From a virus, in the IMG/VR virus record IMGVR_UViG_3300025687_000373, positions 1-21,879 of that record: 21,879 bases of DNA, one strand, 5' to 3'. Numbering within the stretch: the first letter of the stretch is position 1; each line of letters opens with the position of its first letter. Shown here one piece after another: positions 2,882 to 21,879 of the stretch. The position numbers and the translations under genes were made by a program. The notes beneath the pieces are model-generated. The model worked only from the letters and a program-made list of their open reading frames with translations. It had not been told where the DNA came from and made no database searches.

Positions 2882-3071
2882 AGTATTAGAGAGTATCGCT
2901 AGAACAAAGCACGACATCAAAGATAATTGGGCTGCAGGAAATTATACTGAAGAGACAGTAGAGGGCACTGCACAACAGAATGCTAAAGCTATAGGTAGAT
3001 ACCAAGCCCTTGAGGATGTCGAAGATTTAATAGAAGAACTCAAAAAGGAGTGGGAAGACGATAATGAGTAA
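2859..3071 (+). CDS. Small acidic helical protein of unknown function
   Basis: A 70-aa protein starting MSEALIGRVL and ending in an acidic helical tail (IEELKKEWEDDNE). I chose ATG 2859 over the in-frame GTG 2847 because a purine-rich SD-like stretch (GAAGAGTGAG) sits at the right distance before 2859. It overlaps the portal end by 23 bases and the co-chaperonin start by 8 bases, so it is probably translationally coupled on both sides. It looks entirely alpha-helical, with no Cys, signal peptide or membrane segment. Small helical proteins between portal and scaffold are common in phages and rarely characterised. I do not assign a function. Confidence 0.7.
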   Translation: MSEALIGRVLESIARTKHDIKDNWAAGNYTEETVEGTAQQNAKAIGRYQALEDVEDLIEELKKEWEDDNE

Positions 3072-3372
3072 TATTTATCCAGCAGGATATAGAGTATTGA
3101 TTCGTCCAGATGAGCTTGAGGAAGTTTCTGAGGGGGGTATCATAATTAAGTATGCAGACGAGCGTATTGCTAAAGCCGCAACTACTACTGGTGTTGTTGT
3201 AGCTATTGGTAGAGAAGCTTTTGGACAACACAATGGTAACACACCTTGGGTAGAAAAGGGTGATAAAGTTTACTATGCAAAGTATAGTGGTAAGATTGTA
3301 CAAGATCCAGGCACTAAAGAAGAGATGCTCATTGTAAATGATGAGGATATAATTGGTATCATCCAAGAGTAA
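3064..3372 (+). CDS. GroES-like co-chaperonin (Cpn10 fold)
   Basis: A 102-aa protein that follows the GroES pattern along its whole length. It opens with YPAGYRVLIRPDE (compare the GroES DRVLVK strand). EEVSEGGIIIKY at about residues 19-30 matches the mobile loop, whose hydrophobic tripeptide (here III) contacts GroEL. Then come GVVVAIGREAF, a dome-region insert, WVEKGDKVYYAKYSG (compare GDKVLFGKYAG) and a C-terminal strand DEDIIGIIQE. GroES is about 97 aa, so the length fits. By analogy with T4 gp31, which replaces GroES for capsid folding, I infer that it works with host GroEL to fold the capsid protein. Its place between portal and scaffold supports this. It overlaps the previous gene by 8 bases. 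Confidence 0.85.
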   Translation: MSNIYPAGYRVLIRPDELEEVSEGGIIIKYADERIAKAATTTGVVVAIGREAFGQHNGNTPWVEKGDKVYYAKYSGKIVQDPGTKEEMLIVNDEDIIGIIQE

Positions 3373-8486: not shown

Positions 8487-8828
8487 ATGTCCAAGAAACT
8501 CTCATATATACCAGGAGATCATTGGGTTGTTTGCCAACGCTCTGGAAAAGTTATACGTTCTTCTGAGGCTAAGAGAGAGTGGACTGGTCTTATTGTAGCG
8601 CCAGAATATTGGGAACCAAGACACCCACAAGATTTTGTTAGAGTGCGTGCTGAGAATACAGCGGCTAAGGGACTTGTAAATCCCGAACCAACAGATACAT
8701 TTATAACTGGATTCTGCACTACTAGAAGTGCTGTAGCAGGGGTAGCAATCACTGGATGCGCTATAGTAGGATTAGATCCAGAGTATAATGAAATCCCAAC
8801 AGGAACATTTAATAGTAATACATTATGA
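8487..8828 (+). CDS. Zinc-ribbon-derived phage protein with lost cysteines and a pentad-repeat tail
   Basis: A 113-aa protein. Residues 11-52 (DHWVVCQRSGKVIRSSEA ... WEPRHPQDFVR) match a phage family I recall as having two CxxC knuckles before the EPRHPQDFVR signature. Here only C16 remains: S19, A38 and Y41 stand where cysteines would be, so a normal four-Cys zinc site cannot form. Residues 82-97 are three pentads A-V-A-G-V, A-I-T-G-C, A-I-V-G-L plus D. Nearly the same block occurs in the next, 49-aa gene. The stop overlaps that gene's start as ATGA. The role is unknown; its place suggests assembly or attachment of the tailspike. Confidence 0.7.
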   Translation: MSKKLSYIPGDHWVVCQRSGKVIRSSEAKREWTGLIVAPEYWEPRHPQDFVRVRAENTAAKGLVNPEPTDTFITGFCTTRSAVAGVAITGCAIVGLDPEYNEIPTGTFNSNTL

Positions 8829-8974
8829 ATTTGTATTCAAAAGTTTTTTCTTCTGTGGCTGGTGTTGGTGTGTGTGGATATGCCCATACCAGTGTCACAA
8901 TATGTAGTATTGATATTAACAAAGCTGTTGCTGGCATAGCAGTAGCTGGTACAGCAATAGCGGGAATAGAATAA
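8825..8974 (+). CDS. 49-aa pentad-repeat protein
   Basis: A very short gene supported by its junctions. ATG 8825 overlaps the previous stop as ATGA, and its TAA (8972-8974) overlaps the tailspike start as TAATG. The whole product can be read in five-residue units: SVAGV GVCGY AHTSV TICSI, a short break, then AVAGI AVAGT AIAGI E. The last block copies the pattern of residues 82-97 of the upstream 113-aa protein. A-[VI]-x-G-x pentads suggest a small beta-solenoid or a tightly packed glycine-alanine structure; a membrane peptide is the alternative because of the hydrophobicity. Function unknown. Without the coupled start and stop I would not have called it. Confidence 0.6.
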   Translation: MNLYSKVFSSVAGVGVCGYAHTSVTICSIDINKAVAGIAVAGTAIAGIE

Positions 8975-10809
8975 TGGCAACAACTACTTTTGTAGATAAA
9001 GAAACTGTAATTGAGGCAGATTGGTTAAATGATGTTGATGAGCATGTGTATGATCAAACTACTGGTCTACATACGGCGGCTAATATCACTAATGTACCCT
9101 CTGGAAATTTAGCAGCTACTGATGTACAAAGTGCTCTAAATGAGTTACAGACGGGGATAGATGGTGCAGCAACCTATGAGGCTTTAGATAGTGCTGGAGA
9201 TGTAGGCTTTGCCTCTTCTCAAGTACCAGAAGGAGCCAAAGTAGTTCGTAATCTTGCAACTGTTGCAGCTATGGTTGCAGAAACTGGAGTGGTTGTTGGA
9301 GACTATGTGTCAGTACAAGACTATGCTTCTGGAACTACTTCTGGAGTATTATTCTTTAAAGCTGTTACTGCGGCTACAGGAACCGCTGACGGCGGATCAT
9401 ACATAGACTCGACTGGTTCATCAGTACAGTTCAAACAGAATTTCCCATCTGTCATTAGTGTTAAGATGTTTGGTGCTACTGGAGACGGAACTACTGATGA
9501 CACTACTGCCTTGCAAGCATCACTAGATTACGTGCATGCTTCTACCATCGGCGGGTTATACGTTCCAGCAGGAACATATCTTACAGGTAAACTAGAATGG
9601 CCTGGAAACAACATCACACTTCGCGGGGCAGGGTCAGCGTATTCATATAATACGTCAGCCACTCCACGGTCAATTCTCAAAGCTAAGGCTGCTACAACCA
9701 TCGTGCTTGATCTTGTTCAGACTGGGACGGCTGAAGATAGAACAGGGAATCACATTGTTGATATAGGAGTTGATGGTAATTCTATTGCCGCTGTTGGTAT
9801 TGACGTTGCTGGATCAAATGTACTCGAGCAATGCCGTGTGAAAGGTTGTACCACAGCAGGGGTACGTCTATCTAATTATACGAACGGCACTCGGATTGTT
9901 CGATGTGGCCTCAATTCAAATAGTGGATGGGGTATTCAAGTAGAGGGTAGCTCGACTACCACCTATTCAGTTACTGATACAAATACTAGCCTGAATACTG
10001 CAGGTGGTATAAATATTCAAGGTGGTGTGTTAGTCAATTTTAAGAACGTAATTTCAGAATCTAACACTGGTCCAGGATTACGCATTTACAAACCAAACAC
10101 GCACACTAATGCTTTTGAAGGATTCACCTTTGATAACTGTTGGTTTGAGGATAATGCTAGTGCCTCTCCATATTTCACAATAGTGATTGATGCAGATACT
10201 GCTGATCCAGATGCAGGCCCACAAAGAATTTCTTTCAATCAATGTCGGACCACAGCCTCAGCAGCAACTAGAAAGTACGCAAATCTGAATGTAGGTCGTT
10301 GGGTTGAATTTAATAAATGCCAGTTTGATAACTCGACTGAAGCAAATGCTGTAACAATGAGCAGCAACATGCACTACGTCTCTTTTATTGAGTCAACTCA
10401 AGCTACAGGTTCTGATGGTCTTACAGCTACCCAAGTGGATAATGCAATAGCACAAGGCACGAATTGTTGGTGGCATGATCCTGGAGTAAAGCGAGTTGTT
10501 GGTGCTGGGTCTCCTGCAGCCGGCTTTACCAACTCGTGGGTAAATTATGGCAGTGGCTTCGTCCCTGCTGCGTATTGGTTTGATAGAGATGGCCGCATAT
10601 GTATAGAAGGGGTGGTAAAAACAGGCACCCCACCTGCTTCCATATTCACCCTTCCAACAGGATATCGTCCATCATATAACTATGCGTTTGCTCAGGATGC
10701 TGCTGGATCGCATAGCCTTTTATATGTAAACTCTGATGGAACAATTGTACCTAATGTTGGTTCTACAAGTTTCCAGAGTATAGATGGTATTTGTATAGCC
10801 AAGGGGTGA
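8974..10809 (+). CDS. Tailspike, pectate-lyase-like beta-helix
   Basis: A 611-aa receptor-binding protein. Residues 1-30 (TTFVDKETVIEADWLNDVDEHVYD) match the attachment segment common at the start of podovirus tail fibres. Residues 37-63 contain the NLAATDVQSALNEL motif that often marks a trimer-forming neck. From about 160, VISVKMFGATGDGTTDDT and GGLYVPAGTYLTG are the classic opening of the pectate_lyase_3 right-handed beta-helix, which continues with repeated short strands to about 480. Residues 540-611 (GRICIEGVVKTG ... FTLPTGYRPSYN) form a separate C-terminal domain. Such spikes bind and often depolymerise surface polysaccharide; catalytic acids cannot be picked by eye. Arginine codons (13 of 17 CGN) differ from the AGR-rich 387-aa gene upstream, consistent with exchange of the receptor-binding part. 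Confidence 0.85.
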   Translation: MATTTFVDKETVIEADWLNDVDEHVYDQTTGLHTAANITNVPSGNLAATDVQSALNELQTGIDGAATYEALDSAGDVGFASSQVPEGAKVVRNLATVAAMVAETGVVVGDYVSVQDYASGTTSGVLFFKAVTAATGTADGGSYIDSTGSSVQFKQNFPSVISVKMFGATGDGTTDDTTALQASLDYVHASTIGGLYVPAGTYLTGKLEWPGNNITLRGAGSAYSYNTSATPRSILKAKAATTIVLDLVQTGTAEDRTGNHIVDIGVDGNSIAAVGIDVAGSNVLEQCRVKGCTTAGVRLSNYTNGTRIVRCGLNSNSGWGIQVEGSSTTTYSVTDTNTSLNTAGGINIQGGVLVNFKNVISESNTGPGLRIYKPNTHTNAFEGFTFDNCWFEDNASASPYFTIVIDADTADPDAGPQRISFNQCRTTASAATRKYANLNVGRWVEFNKCQFDNSTEANAVTMSSNMHYVSFIESTQATGSDGLTATQVDNAIAQGTNCWWHDPGVKRVVGAGSPAAGFTNSWVNYGSGFVPAAYWFDRDGRICIEGVVKTGTPPASIFTLPTGYRPSYNYAFAQDAAGSHSLLYVNSDGTIVPNVGSTSFQSIDGICIAKG

Positions 10810-10813
10810 TGAT

Positions 10814-11749
10814 ATGAGCACGTCAGGCAGCATTAATTTCTCTGTAAATAGAGATGATCTAATTACAGAGGCTCTTGAACATATAGGAGTGCTGGCAGAG
10901 GGAGATAGCCCTACAGCAGCGCAATTAACCTCGTGTGCTCGCACTCTGAATATGATGGTGAAGAGTTGGCAGACAGATAATTTGCATCTCCATGCTATTA
11001 AGAGAGCTTACCTCTTTCTTGCTAAGAACACGCATGAATACTCTCTATCTAGTAGTGGTGATAATTATACGTATTCATATGTTAAGACGCAGATAGCTGC
11101 AGCAGCTTCTAGTGGTGATAGCACAATCTCTGTGGATAGCATCACAGGCATTAGTAATGCAGATTATATTGGTATAGAGCTTGACGATGGTACTTTGCAG
11201 TGGACTACTGTCAATGGTGCTCCATCTGGATCTACTATCCCTCTAACAGCATCTCTAACTGATGATGTAGCTGTAGACAACTATGTGTTTGCATACACTA
11301 CCAAGGCTGATAGGCCAATGGATATTGTTAAGGCTAGTGTTAGGAACACTTCTAATGTTGATGTAGCTGTAAACAATATTCTACGCAGTGAGTATGTAGA
11401 GCTGTCTAATAAAACTACAGACGGACAAGTTAGTCAAGTGTGGTACGATAGGCACGTAGGTACTGGAACATTACGCACATGGCCTGAAACTGATGACGTA
11501 ACTAATGTTCTTGTGTTGTGGGTTAAGCGTACCATAGAGGATTTTGATACTAGTACGGATGAAATTGACATGCCACAAGAGGCCTATCTTGCTGTAGTGT
11601 TTAACTTAGCAGCATTGCTGGGCTACAAGTATGGGACTCCAACTGCAATTTTAGATAGGATTAGTGCTAAAGCTATGGGATTAAAAGATACTCTAGAAGG
11701 GTATGATAGAGAGGATAGTGTAATGTTCTCTCCTGATTATAGGAATTAA
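10814..11749 (+). CDS. P22 gp4-like tail accessory factor (head-tail adaptor)
   Basis: A 311-aa protein whose N terminus (NRDDLITEALEHIGVLAEGD ... LNMMVKSWQTDN) is the helical adaptor signature of P22 gp4-type proteins, which dock on the portal ring and start tail assembly. P22 gp4 is 166 aa. The extra length includes a beta block at about residues 90-175 (STISVDSITGISNADYIGIE ... LTDDVAVDNYVFAYT) that looks like an inserted Ig-like or beta-sandwich domain. The fold then resumes with DRPMDIVKASVRN and a C-terminal helix region EAYLAVVFNLAALLGYKYG. The stop overlaps the next start as TAATG. Family assignment is good; the nature of the insert is inference. Confidence 0.82.
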   Translation: MSTSGSINFSVNRDDLITEALEHIGVLAEGDSPTAAQLTSCARTLNMMVKSWQTDNLHLHAIKRAYLFLAKNTHEYSLSSSGDNYTYSYVKTQIAAAASSGDSTISVDSITGISNADYIGIELDDGTLQWTTVNGAPSGSTIPLTASLTDDVAVDNYVFAYTTKADRPMDIVKASVRNTSNVDVAVNNILRSEYVELSNKTTDGQVSQVWYDRHVGTGTLRTWPETDDVTNVLVLWVKRTIEDFDTSTDEIDMPQEAYLAVVFNLAALLGYKYGTPTAILDRISAKAMGLKDTLEGYDREDSVMFSPDYRN

Positions 11750-13329
11750 TGATGCGTTTACCTCTTGTTGGAAATATACTAACTAGACGCGCTGATGTTG
11801 CTGTAGATCAGTTTTATAAAAATTGTTACCCAGAAACTGTTGATGAGAACAATCCTTTTGTTACAAAGCGTCCAGGATTAAAAGCTAGTTTAGCATTTAG
11901 TTCTGGAGCGGGTCGTGGGATATACAACTGGAATGGTAATCTATATTCTGTAATAGGAAACACAGTTAGGAAAGGATCTTCAGCACTATCTACTACCCTA
12001 GCCACTACCACTGGAAAAGTGTATTTTTCAGAAACTGGTGGGGGAACCCCAAAGCTTATAATTAATGATTTGACCAACCTATACATTATAGATGCTAGTG
12101 ACAATCTATATTGGCTTGTTGGAGGGGATACAACATATTCAGCTTGGGTTATGTCAACAGCATATAATTCTGGAGATAGGGTTATACCAACAGTTGAAAA
12201 TGGGTTCTTTTATAACGCAAACACAACAGGAACCTCTGACAGCAGTGAACCAACTTGGCCCACAACACTAGGAGATACTGTTGTTGATAATGGGGTTACT
12301 TGGGAATGCGCTGGGTATTACACCAATCTTCCTGATAATATGGTTAGTGGCGTATCTTTCATGGATCAGTATATATTTGTAATGGATAGTGCTGGAGCTA
12401 TATATAACACTAATGTTAATGATCCTACAACTATCACAGCCTCCGACTTCATCACAGCAGAAGATAATCCAGATGTGGGTGTTAGGGTTCACAGACATCT
12501 TAATTACATCGTAGGCTTTGGGCAATATAGTATTGAATTCTTCTATGATGCGGCTAATGCATCAGGCTCTCCATTAAGTAGGGTTAGCGAGGCAGTAAAT
12601 CATGTAGGGTGTGTAAGTGGTGATACAGTAGCCTCTATGGATAATTTTACATTATTTCTTGGTAGAGATAGAACGGGAGAGGCTAAATTATATGGTATAG
12701 AAGGTCTAGCTACTAAAATAGTTTCTACAAAAGCCGTAGATAGAATTATAAATTCTGAAGGATCAAATCTATCTGCTGCATATGGGTATGTAGTAAAATC
12801 TTCTGGGCATGTTTGGTATGTCTTAACACTCACCAGTATTGGCAAAACCCTCGTATATGATTTGATTGATAAGGTGTGGCACTCGTGGAGTTCTTATAAT
12901 GGTAGCACAGAAACATATTTCACAGGAGTAGGCTTTGCGGAAGTAGGTTCTGTGGGTTACATTCTTGATAAGGACAACGGGGACATCTATGAACTTGATG
13001 AGGCCACCTACCAGGATGCTAGTAACATCATAAAAGTACAAGGAACTACAGATATATTTGATGGTGACATCATAAAAAATAAGTTTTGTACTAGGCTAGA
13101 AGTGGTTGGAGATAGAGCTGCCTCAGCAGCTACTTTATCTATATCATGGTCAGATGATGACTATGCTACATTTAATACCCCAAGAAATGTTGATCTTAAC
13201 AGTAGAGCACTGTTAACTAGACTAGGCAAATTCCGTAGAAGGGCTTTTAGGTACACATTTGAAGAAAATCTTCCTATGCGTCTAGAAGCTTTTGATATTG
13301 AAGTTCTTCCAGGAGAGTATGGACAATAA
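11749..13329 (+). CDS. P22 gp10-like tail hub / packaged-DNA stabilisation protein
   Basis: A 526-aa protein following the gp4-like adaptor, as in P22. It opens MMRLPLVGNILTRRADVAVDQ and then YPETV...FVTKRPGL, the usual start of this family, and ends with RALLTRLGKFRRRAFRYTF, close to the conserved LGR(F)RRR tail of gp10-type hubs. It is predicted beta-propeller or beta-rich throughout. Residues about 131-191 (WVMSTAYNSGDRVIP ... EPTWPTTLGDTVVDNGVTWEC) form a self-contained module found in many phage surface proteins and appear inserted; removing it leaves about 466 aa, close to the 472 aa of P22 gp10. The protein should close the portal channel below the adaptor. It starts in a TAATGATG junction. 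Confidence 0.82.
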   Translation: MMRLPLVGNILTRRADVAVDQFYKNCYPETVDENNPFVTKRPGLKASLAFSSGAGRGIYNWNGNLYSVIGNTVRKGSSALSTTLATTTGKVYFSETGGGTPKLIINDLTNLYIIDASDNLYWLVGGDTTYSAWVMSTAYNSGDRVIPTVENGFFYNANTTGTSDSSEPTWPTTLGDTVVDNGVTWECAGYYTNLPDNMVSGVSFMDQYIFVMDSAGAIYNTNVNDPTTITASDFITAEDNPDVGVRVHRHLNYIVGFGQYSIEFFYDAANASGSPLSRVSEAVNHVGCVSGDTVASMDNFTLFLGRDRTGEAKLYGIEGLATKIVSTKAVDRIINSEGSNLSAAYGYVVKSSGHVWYVLTLTSIGKTLVYDLIDKVWHSWSSYNGSTETYFTGVGFAEVGSVGYILDKDNGDIYELDEATYQDASNIIKVQGTTDIFDGDIIKNKFCTRLEVVGDRAASAATLSISWSDDDYATFNTPRNVDLNSRALLTRLGKFRRRAFRYTFEENLPMRLEAFDIEVLPGEYGQ

Positions 13330-19153: not shown

Positions 19154-19558
19154 ATGATAGCTGCATTGGCTACAGTATTCGGGCCAGCAATTGGAACGCT
19201 AATTGACAGGCTTGTTCCTGACAAGCATGAAGCTGAGAAAATGAAGTCTGAGATGGAGATGCAGCTTTTAAATGCTGCCAACCAAATCAACCTAGAGCAG
19301 ATTAAAACTAACCAAACTGAGGCAGCACATAGAAGTATTTTTGTAGCTGGTTGGCGACCATTTATTGGTTGGACATGCGGTGCAGGGTTTGCTTGGGCTT
19401 TTGTTGGACAACCTGTGGCCACTTGGGTGTTAGCTCTGTCTGGGTCTGAAATACTACTACCTGCACTAGACACAGCCCCACTGCTAGAGATGGCATTTGC
19501 TATGTTAGGGTTGGCTGGCATGCGTAGCTGGGAGAAGAGTAGAGGACTAACCAAATAA
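19154..19558 (+). CDS. Holin, 3TM GTA type
   Basis: A 134-aa protein with AGGAGG 6 bases before ATG 19154. It has a hydrophobic N terminus, then a charged helix (KHEAEKMKSEMEMQLLNAAN), and the family signature: QTEAAH, FVAGWRPFIGWTCGAGFAWAF, then LLEMAFAMLGLAGMRSWEKSRG. This is the pattern of the holin of 3TMs first described for gene transfer agents. Holins collect in the inner membrane and form the holes that start lysis. No endolysin is visible nearby, so it must lie elsewhere in the phage genome. It is the last plus-strand gene in the window and is followed by a terminator. Confidence 0.88.
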   Translation: MIAALATVFGPAIGTLIDRLVPDKHEAEKMKSEMEMQLLNAANQINLEQIKTNQTEAAHRSIFVAGWRPFIGWTCGAGFAWAFVGQPVATWVLALSGSEILLPALDTAPLLEMAFAMLGLAGMRSWEKSRGLTK

Positions 19559-20007: not shown

Positions 20008-20173
20008 CCTTCAACACCTCCACTAACCAAGATAAATCCTTACCCTTCTTATCTAACAACTCCAGTACGTCAATAATATCCTCCTTACGGGCAGACAGAG
20101 TCTTTGAATCTGGACGCTTGGTGAAGAATAGTACCTCATCTGGTCTTTCTGTAGTTATATAGGGTCGGCCCAT
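20000..20173 (-). CDS. Small protein of unknown function, coupled to nrdJ
   Basis: A 57-aa protein, MGRPYITTERPDEVLFFTKR onward. ATG 20173 shares its A with the nrdJ stop (TAATG), and AAGGAG lies 8 bases upstream, inside nrdJ. I preferred this to the in-frame GTG at 20182. The second half is a charged helix (EDIIDVLELLDKKGKDLSWLVEVL). The product is soluble, with no Cys. The tight junction suggests co-translation with the reductase, but I have no evidence for a shared function. Confidence 0.6.
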   Translation of the reverse strand: MGRPYITTERPDEVLFFTKRPDSKTLSARKEDIIDVLELLDKKGKDLSWLVEVLKDV

Positions 20174-21879
20174 TATTCGCACTCCTTCTTTCCAGTAGCA
20201 GGATCGTAGAAGCAGGCTTTAGCCTCTTCTTTCTCCTCTTCCTTGGTTTCATTCAGAATACCAAACCGCTTACCAGAAGCTCTGAATGTTGTAACCCCTT
20301 TACATCCCATCTTCCAAGCTTTCATGTAAATATCCTTGAATTGATCCCATGTAACATCATCCCCAACATTAATGGTTTTAGAGCAAGCACTGTCCGTATA
20401 CTTCTGTGCCGCAGCTAGTACAGCTAAATGCTCATCAACAGTACACTCCCCAGCAGTACGTCCTTTAACTCCCCATTCCATCATTCCATAGTCTTTCACT
20501 GTTTCCCTAACTGTAATACCATCCTTCAATACATCTCTGGTGTACGAATGCGAGAATACAGGTTCGATGCCAGAAGAAATATTATCAGCACAAAGGCTAA
20601 TAGTACCAGTGGGAGCAATGCTAATAAGGTGAGAGTTCCTGATACCATTTTCCCTAATACACTGTTGTGTTTCTTCGTCCAGCGTCTTAAAAAACTCTCC
20701 ATTGCAATACTTCTCCGCATCATATAGAGGAAAAGACCCTTTCTCTTTAGCTAGCTCACTGGAGGCTATATAAGCCTCATTAGTGAGGAATTGCAACAAC
20801 TCCTCCTCAAATATAAGAAAGTCTGCGCTTCCATATTCATAGCCTAAGTATTCCAGAGCATTAGCTAGTCCGGTAACACCAAGCCCCATCCTACGTTTAT
20901 TCTTAGCCTCCTCTTCCTGCTCAGGCATGGGGTAGGGAGTGTTGTCAATGACATTATCCATAGCTCTAACTACAGCACGAATATCCCGCATAAATAACTC
21001 ATAATTAAATGCCTTATATACGCCATCATATTCTGATACATATTTAGTGAGATTGAAGCTTCCTAACAGGCAAGCCCCATTGGGTGGCAAAGGTTGCTCA
21101 CCACACGGATTTGTAGCACTAATAGTTTCACAATAGTATAGGTTGTTCATTTGGTTAATGCGGTCAAGGAACAACACCCCAGGTTCTGCCCAGTCCCACG
21201 TAGCTCTCATAAGCTTGTCATACAGCTTCTTAGCATTCACACGCTTATACACCTTACCCTCAAACGTAAGCTCAAACTCTTTGTTATTCTCTACACATTC
21301 CATAAACTCATCTGTAACACCTACAGATATATTGAAGGCGGTTAATTCTGTATCATTAGTCTTTGCTTCTATGAAGGCTTCAATGTCTGGATGATCCACA
21401 CGAAGCACCCCCATTTGAGCACCTCTACGGTTACCAGCACTAGCTACAGTTTTACACGTAGCATCAAATATCTGCATGAAGCTTATGGGACCAGACGCAG
21501 CACTGTCTAATGATACAATATGAGAACCGGAGGGTCTAATACTACTGAAGTCATACCCAATGCCTCCACCTTTCTTCATTGTTAATGCTGAATATTTAGC
21601 AACATCCATAATACCATCCATACTATCGTGTATGGTGGGGGAAACAAAGCAATTAAAAGCTGTTACATTTCTAGGACTACCTACAGCACTCTGAATACGT
21701 CCTCCAGGTAGGAATCTCTGTTCTCCTAGAATTTCTCTAACATCCTCAAAGTGCGCATCATCATCTGCTAATGTGTCTGCCACTCTTGTAGCATATTCAT
21801 CAAAAGATTCTCCTATCCCACGATATTTACGAGCATGGGTTTCTTTAGCAAACTCTGTTTTTGGCCCTTCAAACTTCAT
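20173..21879 (-). CDS. nrdJ: Class II (adenosylcobalamin-dependent) ribonucleotide reductase
   Basis: A 568-aa enzyme that makes deoxyribonucleotides for phage DNA synthesis. The key residues are visible: C77 in AFNCFVS and C270 in GACLLGS as the redox pair, and N257-P-C259-G-E261 carrying the thiyl-radical Cys with its Asn and Glu. The 259-270 spacing of 11 equals that of Thermotoga NrdJ (322-333). PTGTIS (423-428) and SSGIEP (435-440) are of the class II type, and no paired radical-transfer tyrosines of class I appear. The C terminus has C556 and C567 11 residues apart rather than a CxxC. ATG 21879 is the last codon of the window, so a longer N terminus cannot be excluded, although FLPGGR at 56-61 suggests most of it is present. 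Confidence 0.9.
   Translation of the reverse strand: MKFEGPKTEFAKETHARKYRGIGESFDEYATRVADTLADDDAHFEDVREILGEQRFLPGGRIQSAVGSPRNVTAFNCFVSPTIHDSMDGIMDVAKYSALTMKKGGGIGYDFSSIRPSGSHIVSLDSAASGPISFMQIFDATCKTVASAGNRRGAQMGVLRVDHPDIEAFIEAKTNDTELTAFNISVGVTDEFMECVENNKEFELTFEGKVYKRVNAKKLYDKLMRATWDWAEPGVLFLDRINQMNNLYYCETISATNPCGEQPLPPNGACLLGSFNLTKYVSEYDGVYKAFNYELFMRDIRAVVRAMDNVIDNTPYPMPEQEEEAKNKRRMGLGVTGLANALEYLGYEYGSADFLIFEEELLQFLTNEAYIASSELAKEKGSFPLYDAEKYCNGEFFKTLDEETQQCIRENGIRNSHLISIAPTGTISLCADNISSGIEPVFSHSYTRDVLKDGITVRETVKDYGMMEWGVKGRTAGECTVDEHLAVLAAAQKYTDSACSKTINVGDDVTWDQFKDIYMKAWKMGCKGVTTFRASGKRFGILNETKEEEKEEAKACFYDPATGKKECE

Follow-up and report, generated by a model that had tools for sequence, protein, structure and literature searches.

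Gene content of the window

The window is the whole stretch of DNA that was analysed, and its source record is a virus contig of 21,879 bases. The genes on the contig encode, in order, a large terminase, a portal, a GroES-like protein, a Mu gpT-like major capsid protein, and a structural protein. These are followed by genes for a 94-aa protein, P113, P49, a tailspike, an Ad3-like adaptor, and an Hc3/gp10-like stabilisation protein. The features of interest are listed below.

8487 to 8828, plus strand: P113, 113 aa, with a zinc-ribbon-like N-terminal domain (about residues 8-60), a C-terminal pentad block and an IPTGTF tail (ORF, relatives)
8730 to 8771, plus strand: pentad block of P113, AVAGVAITGCAIVG, residues 82-95 (alignment A3; matrix score 34.2 bits)
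8793 to 8810, plus strand: IPTGTF tail motif of P113, residues 103-108 (recurs in alignments of block-bearing relatives)
8825 to 8974, plus strand: P49, a stand-alone block ORF of 49 aa that overlaps P113 (ATGA) and the spike (TAATG) (ORF, positional parallels)
8852 to 8893, plus strand: degenerate first block of P49, SVAGVGVCGYAHTS, residues 10-23 (10.9 bits, reached by 5 of 20,000 shuffles)
8924 to 8965, plus strand: second block of P49, AVAGIAVAGTAIAG, residues 34-47 (31.9 bits, reached by 0 of 20,000 shuffles)
8974 to 10809, plus strand: tailspike, 611 aa, a pectate-lyase-like beta-helix (PF12708 over residues 161-389, E 5.9e-10; PHROG tail spike families)
8974 to 9066, plus strand: N-terminal "WLN" anchor of the spike, MATTTFVDKETVIEADWLNDVDEHVYDQTTG, which is proposed to pair with the block (conserved in alignments A4 and A8; co-occurrence; co-variation)
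10814 to 11749, plus strand: head-tail adaptor (Ad3-like), the spike's neighbour (phrog_12985, 3.4e-30; phrog_637, 7.6e-5)
11749 to 13329, plus strand: Hc3/gp10-like stabilisation protein (phrog_578, E 2.4e-56)

Other genes were identified outside this region. A GroES-like co-chaperonin (3064-3372; PF00166, E 1.2e-17) lies downstream of the portal gene. A GTA-type holin with three TM segments is found at 19154-19558 (PF11351, E 1.8e-19), and a ribonucleotide reductase large subunit, truncated by the contig end, at 20173-21879 on the minus strand (phrog_84, E 4.9e-143).

The pentad block

Two segments with a five-residue period had been reported in a first-pass annotation of the window, and their coordinates were confirmed. 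AVAGVAITGCAIVGLD makes up residues 82-97 of P113 (8730-8777), and AVAGIAVAGTAIAGIE makes up residues 34-49 of P49, up to the stop at 8974. The ATGA and TAATG junctions that were said to lock the genes together also held (8825-8828 and 8972-8976). The claim that P49 can be read as pentads almost throughout held only in part, and P49 has one strong block (34-47) and one degenerate block (10-23). The same annotation pointed out that both segments end in an acid. This is not general, as position 15 varies freely and the residues that follow the block differ among relatives. A lack of pentad conservation in related phages was named there as an outcome that would refute the idea, and the opposite was found, with the pentads conserved in relatives.

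A 14-position matrix was made from the blocks of 38 relatives, with P113's own block included and that of P49 excluded. None of 5,000 shuffles reached the P113 score and none of 20,000 reached that of the second P49 block. Thus, the block is not a product of chance. No other ORF in the window scored above 5.3 bits with this matrix, and P113 and P49 are its sole block bearers. The Hc3 protein of the window was inspected in its C-terminal sequence as well as scanned, and no block was found.

The consensus is three pentads, each A-[IV]-[AP]-[GD]-x. The number of pentads is exactly three in 106 of the 121 distinct blocks. Pentad position 4 is G or D in 91-100% and position 3 is A or P in 78-94%. 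Changes at these positions tend to be concerted. Proline at position 3 is absent from 102 blocks, present in all three pentads of 13, and in between in 6. Asp at position 4 is absent from 105 blocks and is found in three pentads of 7, two of 7, and one of 2. AIAGIAVAGIAIAG is encoded by three very different codon strings in different contigs, and selection therefore acts on the peptide.

P113 and its family

The first 75 residues of P113 belong to a large family, with at least 577 IMG/VR stretches found by profile search. This wide family was reached by profile only and not by single-sequence searches. Relatives in phage records (tblastn E 1e-11 to 4e-7) include Alcaligenes phage QDWS535. The family core is CxxCG...W.G..VC..WEPRHPQDFVR, and P113 is homologous across CxxCG...W.G..VC..WEPRHPQDF (alignment A3). 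Most relatives keep the Cys ligands. P113 has lost two of them, with Ser at position 19 and Ala at position 38, and retains Cys16. It is likely that P113 is a non-zinc member of a zinc-ribbon-like family, although this is inferred from sequence alone. For the block, the AlphaFold model of P113 has a pLDDT of only about 60, against about 95 for residues 11-40. The cysteine pattern of the relatives suggests that the confident domain is a zinc ribbon. With the P113 model as query, Foldseek found nothing below E 1, and small zinc-binding folds were among the top matches. A PDB profile search with the P113 alignment gave nothing significant and no solved relative.

The C-terminal sequence C[ST]..(S)A[IV][AP]GxAx[AP]GCA[IV][AP]G is found in about half of the deduplicated family members, often with IPxGTF after it. 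The block-bearing zinc-ribbon relatives almost always have Cys91 inside the block and Cys77 in front of it (alignment A3).

Other C-termini are present in this family. Block-less zinc-ribbon relatives share a conserved tail such as "...FLSDNEVTADDL" (L022, L030, L034, L041, L047, L078, L138, and others), which may serve to dock another partner. Zinc-ribbon relatives in L062, L066-L067, and L069-L072 have long "PAAASITYTTAAP" repeat extensions instead, and the relative in Roseobacter phage CRP-902 (L004) has "GVAGTGAIGT" repeats as its extension. L087 (7878-8478) has two tandem overlapping zinc-ribbon genes, and the block (Asp type) is in the second only. In L080 (2462-3448; also in L083), a very hydrophobic, Ser/Thr/Val-rich protein of 328 aa encoded upstream of the zinc-ribbon gene contains "NGCLAGIAVAGIAIAGSP".

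P49 and other stand-alone block ORFs

P49 occupies an interval of 145 nt; in 25 relatives the same interval is at most 33 nt, with a median of 8. The Cys-led linker CSIDINK of P49 is not pentad in form and resembles the linker that precedes the P113 block. No close relative of P49 was found in single-sequence searches of IMG/VR or in tblastn and blastn searches of phage records, and because of this no dN/dS could be obtained for the frame. There are, however, parallels to it by position in unrelated contigs. At least six tiny stand-alone block ORFs were identified, P49 included. Those of L091, L200, L438 (52 aa), L439 (86 aa), and L443 (56 aa) lie beside the spike, in the place of P49, and range from 52 to 108 aa. 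In L091 and L200, the adjoining ORF directly before the spike bears the block and the zinc-ribbon ORF does not.

It is inferred that P49 is translated and incorporated into the virion. With one good and one degenerate copy of the block, it would be a free-standing clip or adaptor that is made beside the spike. P49 could instead be a decaying remnant, left by duplication of the P113 C-terminus, that is not translated or has no role, with the P113 block alone doing the work. The lack of a close relative, the dN/dS that could not be measured, and the degenerate first block are in favor of this. Against it, P49 overlaps both neighbours through ATGA and TAATG, its second block is near consensus, analogous ORFs are at the same place in the five loci named above, and the zinc-ribbon proteins next to the L091 and L200 ORFs are without a block. 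The remnant explanation is thus considered unlikely.

Carriers of the block

A scan for the three-pentad pattern found at least 120 loci; low-complexity GC-rich frames were excluded by inspection. The same scan found the block in gp10/Hc3-like neck proteins, where it lies in a loop between "LQIQFQPGVG" and "NPQAMLRWS" and is flanked by S/T-rich linkers. This loop has three states: short (a), with the pentad block (b), and with another insert of about 45 residues (c). The blocks of the Hc3 type are mostly without Cys. L176 has its block in another Hc3 loop, has a zinc-ribbon protein without a block, and possesses the anchor. There are also proteins with two blocks in one chain, namely the zinc-ribbon relatives of L020, L024, L032, L052, and L120. 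The zinc-ribbon and gp10/Hc3-like carriers have no recognised homology to one another. The block therefore swaps carriers, being found at zinc-ribbon C-termini, in Hc3 loops, and in stand-alone ORFs. A scan of genome contigs gave only four distant loci, and lysogenic relatives added nothing.

Some further carriers were seen. In L204, L212, and L217, the block is in small or tail-type proteins, and two proteins of L217 each have a block-like segment. The L204 block (2612-2905) is just before a protein that starts with "MSFVKRNYVDGETVITASNLNDIQDAVIDLE", which resembles the WLN anchor. No clear anchor was found in the stretch examined for the carriers of L177, L183, and L217.

Co-occurrence of the block and the spike anchor

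The anchor is a spike N-terminus of the form TTFVDxxTVIxAxWLNDV, and the spike of the window bears it. Alignment A8 of the anchor was built from DNA references. A search of the PDB with the anchor profile found no chain at E up to 5, and by sequence no solved relative, such as a P22-type tailspike head-binding domain, was recognised.

The neck proteins serve as a separate test, because their block sits inside an otherwise conserved gene that is 2-5 kb from the spike. In whole-record searches, the anchor was present in 23 of 24 records with the block (b), none of 18 with the short loop (a), and none of 30 with the other insert (c). The single exception (L365) starts at the stabilisation gene, at the contig edge. 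A gene-content scan in which no partner was assumed gave the same answer. Across 28 genomes (8 b, 9 a, 11 c), the top 25-residue window for b was the anchor, with 8/8 b, 0/9 a, and 0/11 c.

The zinc-ribbon data agree. The block and the anchor are both present in 48 cases, the block only in 5, the anchor only in 3, and neither in 35. A count by adjacency, with the block and a downstream "MATTTFVDKETVIEADWLNDVDEHVYD" spike, gave 34 loci with both, 13 with the block only, 2 with the spike only, and 44 with neither (Fisher p 2.5e-12, uncorrected for kinship). For 8 of the 13 with the block only, the anchor is elsewhere in the record. As for the two with the spike only, L010 has a degenerate block, and L087 enters the count with the first of two tandem copies, of which the second bears the block. 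The association was also found in the reverse direction, starting from 80 anchors, 64 of which have a block within reach. When at least 4 kb was available on both sides of the anchor, a block was found at 30 of 33 loci, with a background of 1/24 at a weak score. One of the three well-covered anchor loci without a block has a stand-alone ORF of two pentads.

There are exceptions. No recognisable anchor was found in five block-bearing records (L075, L088, L098, L124, and L275), none of which is known to be complete. In L106 the anchor is present and no block was detected. The 14 phage-record stretches with related stabilisation proteins lacked both the WLN anchor and a convincing block. Most of the sequences are metagenomic fragments, and absence is weaker evidence here than presence. 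In addition, L136 has an anchor of a variant kind, and a weak block-like segment, GIVGIGIVGIMIVG (14.7 bits), was seen in another of its proteins.

Kinship and co-variation

Kinship was taken into account with two trees. On a tree of Hc3 proteins made with the loop removed, at least six changes of block state are counted, and in 3/3 supported independent pairs the anchor agrees with them. These pairs number only three. On the zinc-ribbon tree, which has 70 columns and poor resolution, about 11 of 15 independent pairs for block and anchor agree and 0-1 oppose.

The type of block also co-varies with the anchor. The F-[VT]..WLN spacer of the anchor is longer than nine residues with 10 of 13 proline-type blocks vs 0 of 63 others (p 3e-10); for all 63 non-proline blocks, the paired spacer is eight or nine residues. 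The proline state changes independently 8 times on the zinc-ribbon tree. The spacer shifts with it in 6-7 of these and opposes it in none. It remains possible that, with block and spike adjacent in the zinc-ribbon phages, joint inheritance or transfer explains part of the co-occurrence and of the spacer co-variation. Conservation of the block, its exchange among carriers, its co-occurrence with the anchor, the co-variation of block type and spacer, and the concerted change of the three pentads are shown by these data.

A proposed docking peptide for the spike

The block is likely to be a short, portable docking peptide that is displayed on neck-proximal proteins and holds spikes or fibres with the WLN anchor, although there is no direct evidence of binding. 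The trimeric anchor at the N-terminus of the spike would capture a disordered block peptide on a neck-proximal protein. In the simplest stoichiometry, one pentad would be bound by each chain of the trimer. Both the physical binding and this stoichiometry are inferred. The concerted Pro and Asp changes across three pentads would fit three equivalent contact sites, and tailspikes are trimers. In this phage, Hc3 has no block, the C-terminus of P113 would display it, and P49 would add copies. In related phages, the same peptide is found in the loop of the gp10/Hc3-like neck protein. In phage P22, gp10 together with gp4 forms the tail body that binds six trimeric tailspikes (PMC3741392). A block in a gp10-like loop is plausibly placed, because P22 gp10 belongs to this tailspike-binding body.

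The first-pass annotation had proposed that a small repeat module was duplicated and that it may join or stabilise the receptor-binding complex. The duplication is supported by the proteins with two blocks and by the separate ORFs next to the spike. The proposed role is largely supported by the co-occurrence and co-variation of block and anchor, with binding itself still inferred. An AlphaFold prediction was made for an artificial read-through chain of L099, in which TAA was read as Gln. This was a single chain, made only to unite block and anchor. The block had a pLDDT of about 50, the pTM was 0.29, and no docked pose was obtained.

Alternative explanations

The block could be a structural element of its own carrier, such as a motif for the stapling or folding of P113 or the neck hexamer, that never contacts the spike, with the co-occurrence due to a linked cassette. 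In the zinc-ribbon phages, the median gap between the block and spike genes is 8 nt, which would make hitchhiking easy, and the near-invariance of Cys77 and Cys91 in that family suggests a local fold or a metal or disulfide role. However, the association with the anchor (23/24 vs 0/48) persists in Hc3, where the block lies 2-5 kb from the spike. The carriers share no recognised homology, the Hc3-type blocks mostly lack Cys, and L176 has a block in Hc3, none in its zinc-ribbon protein, and the anchor. This explanation also leaves the spacer co-variation unexplained, and it is regarded as unlikely.

Two other explanations appear to be far less probable still. A membrane-active hydrophobic segment, as a short transmembrane or fusion-like peptide for DNA delivery, would suit the A/V/I/G-rich composition of many copies. 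Variants are found, however, with Pro in every pentad (AVPGYAVPGC), with Asp in every pentad (GVADVGVADC), and with Arg or Glu at the hydrophobic position (ARAGQAEAGCARAG). At about 15 residues, the block is too short for a membrane-spanning helix, and it is inserted in a loop of a soluble neck protein. A purely mechanical role, as a minimal beta-solenoid of the pentapeptide-repeat kind or an elastin-like beta-turn spring, would suit the five-residue period, and [AP]-G suits beta-turns. The pattern [IV]-[AP]-G-x-[AG] formally resembles the VPGxG pattern of elastin. Against this, the copy number is fixed at three with no extended array, there is no Pfam pentapeptide match, and the pairing with one type of anchor is not explained. 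Both explanations were set aside on the occurrence of the Pro, Asp, and Arg/Glu variants and on the fixed copy number.

Comparison with known systems

The docking-peptide reading is similar to what has been described for Klebsiella phages, whose receptor-binding proteins attach by an "anchor domain" and a "conserved peptide" (Latka et al. 2019, PMC6872550). The short N-terminal peptides of K1E, K1-5, and SP6 are cited in the same work. In that scheme, the way in which a receptor-binding protein attaches is set by short conserved peptides (down to 7-11 residues) and by N-terminal anchors, and these parts are modular and undergo horizontal exchange. The peptide of that scheme sits N-terminally on a receptor-binding protein, and the proposed site for it is the T4gp10-like domain of another receptor-binding protein. 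In contrast, the pentad block is on the virion side, at zinc-ribbon C-termini, in Hc3 loops, or in its own ORF, it consists of three pentads, and the spike anchor is a different one. General Pfam and PHROG scans, without a profile dedicated to such domains, found no T4gp10-like domain in the spike of the window. It is likely that the block adds to the principle of attachment peptides by reversing the side that the peptide is on and by exchange among unrelated carriers, with binding again inferred.

In P22, the gp10/Hc3-like protein belongs to the structure under the spikes, and the block sits in a loop of relatives of that protein. The window differs in that its Hc3 lacks the block and P113 and P49 carry it instead. 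To our knowledge, no peptide of this kind has been described for P22. Pentapeptide-repeat proteins (Pfam PF00805 and relatives) also have a five-residue period. Their consensus is A(D/N)LXX, with a central Leu or Phe, in a long solenoid array; the block has three repeats only. The Pfam pentapeptide models did not match P113, P49, or eight further proteins, and the block does not belong to this class. The literature searched gave no description of it, and most subscription journals were outside the coverage.

The fixation of spikes and fibres to the necks of short-tailed phages is known for few model phages. A motif of 15 residues and an anchor of 30 residues would predict the mode of attachment from sequence in many uncultured phages. 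The block would also explain many of the tiny or repeat-bearing "hypothetical" genes of the virion region.

A second insert in the neck loop

A bolder reading is that the block is a self-contained, horizontally mobile tag in which each pentad binds one anchor chain. Any exposed neck loop or terminus, or a mini-protein like P49, would thereby become a spike socket, and the same loop would accept at least one other tag with a matched fibre anchor. This is tentative, and at present leans slightly towards the doubtful. If it is true, the necks of short-tailed phages would use an interchangeable socket and plug code.

The second type of insert (c), "..SPYYIAPTDTLIITSDETLILGQSN..", is found in the same Hc3 loop and co-occurs with the fibre N-terminus "MGQLTFQATLGGAVNLVGPNTAST". 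Inserts b and c each have their own fibre N-terminus; therefore, the same loop seems to hold different matched tags. This alternative insert, with its different fibre anchor, suggests a general and readable socket and plug code behind the exchange of tail modules. The second insert and the MGQLTFQATLGGAVNLVGPNTAST fibre N-terminus could possibly be a second socket and plug pair. The loci with this insert are L292-L308, L315, L317, L325-L329, L335, L336, L339, and L345, together with L353, L354, L358, L360, and L361. In the gene-content scan, the MGQLTFQATLGGAVNLVGPNTAST N-terminus was the top window for c, being present in 8/11 c genomes vs 0/17 others.
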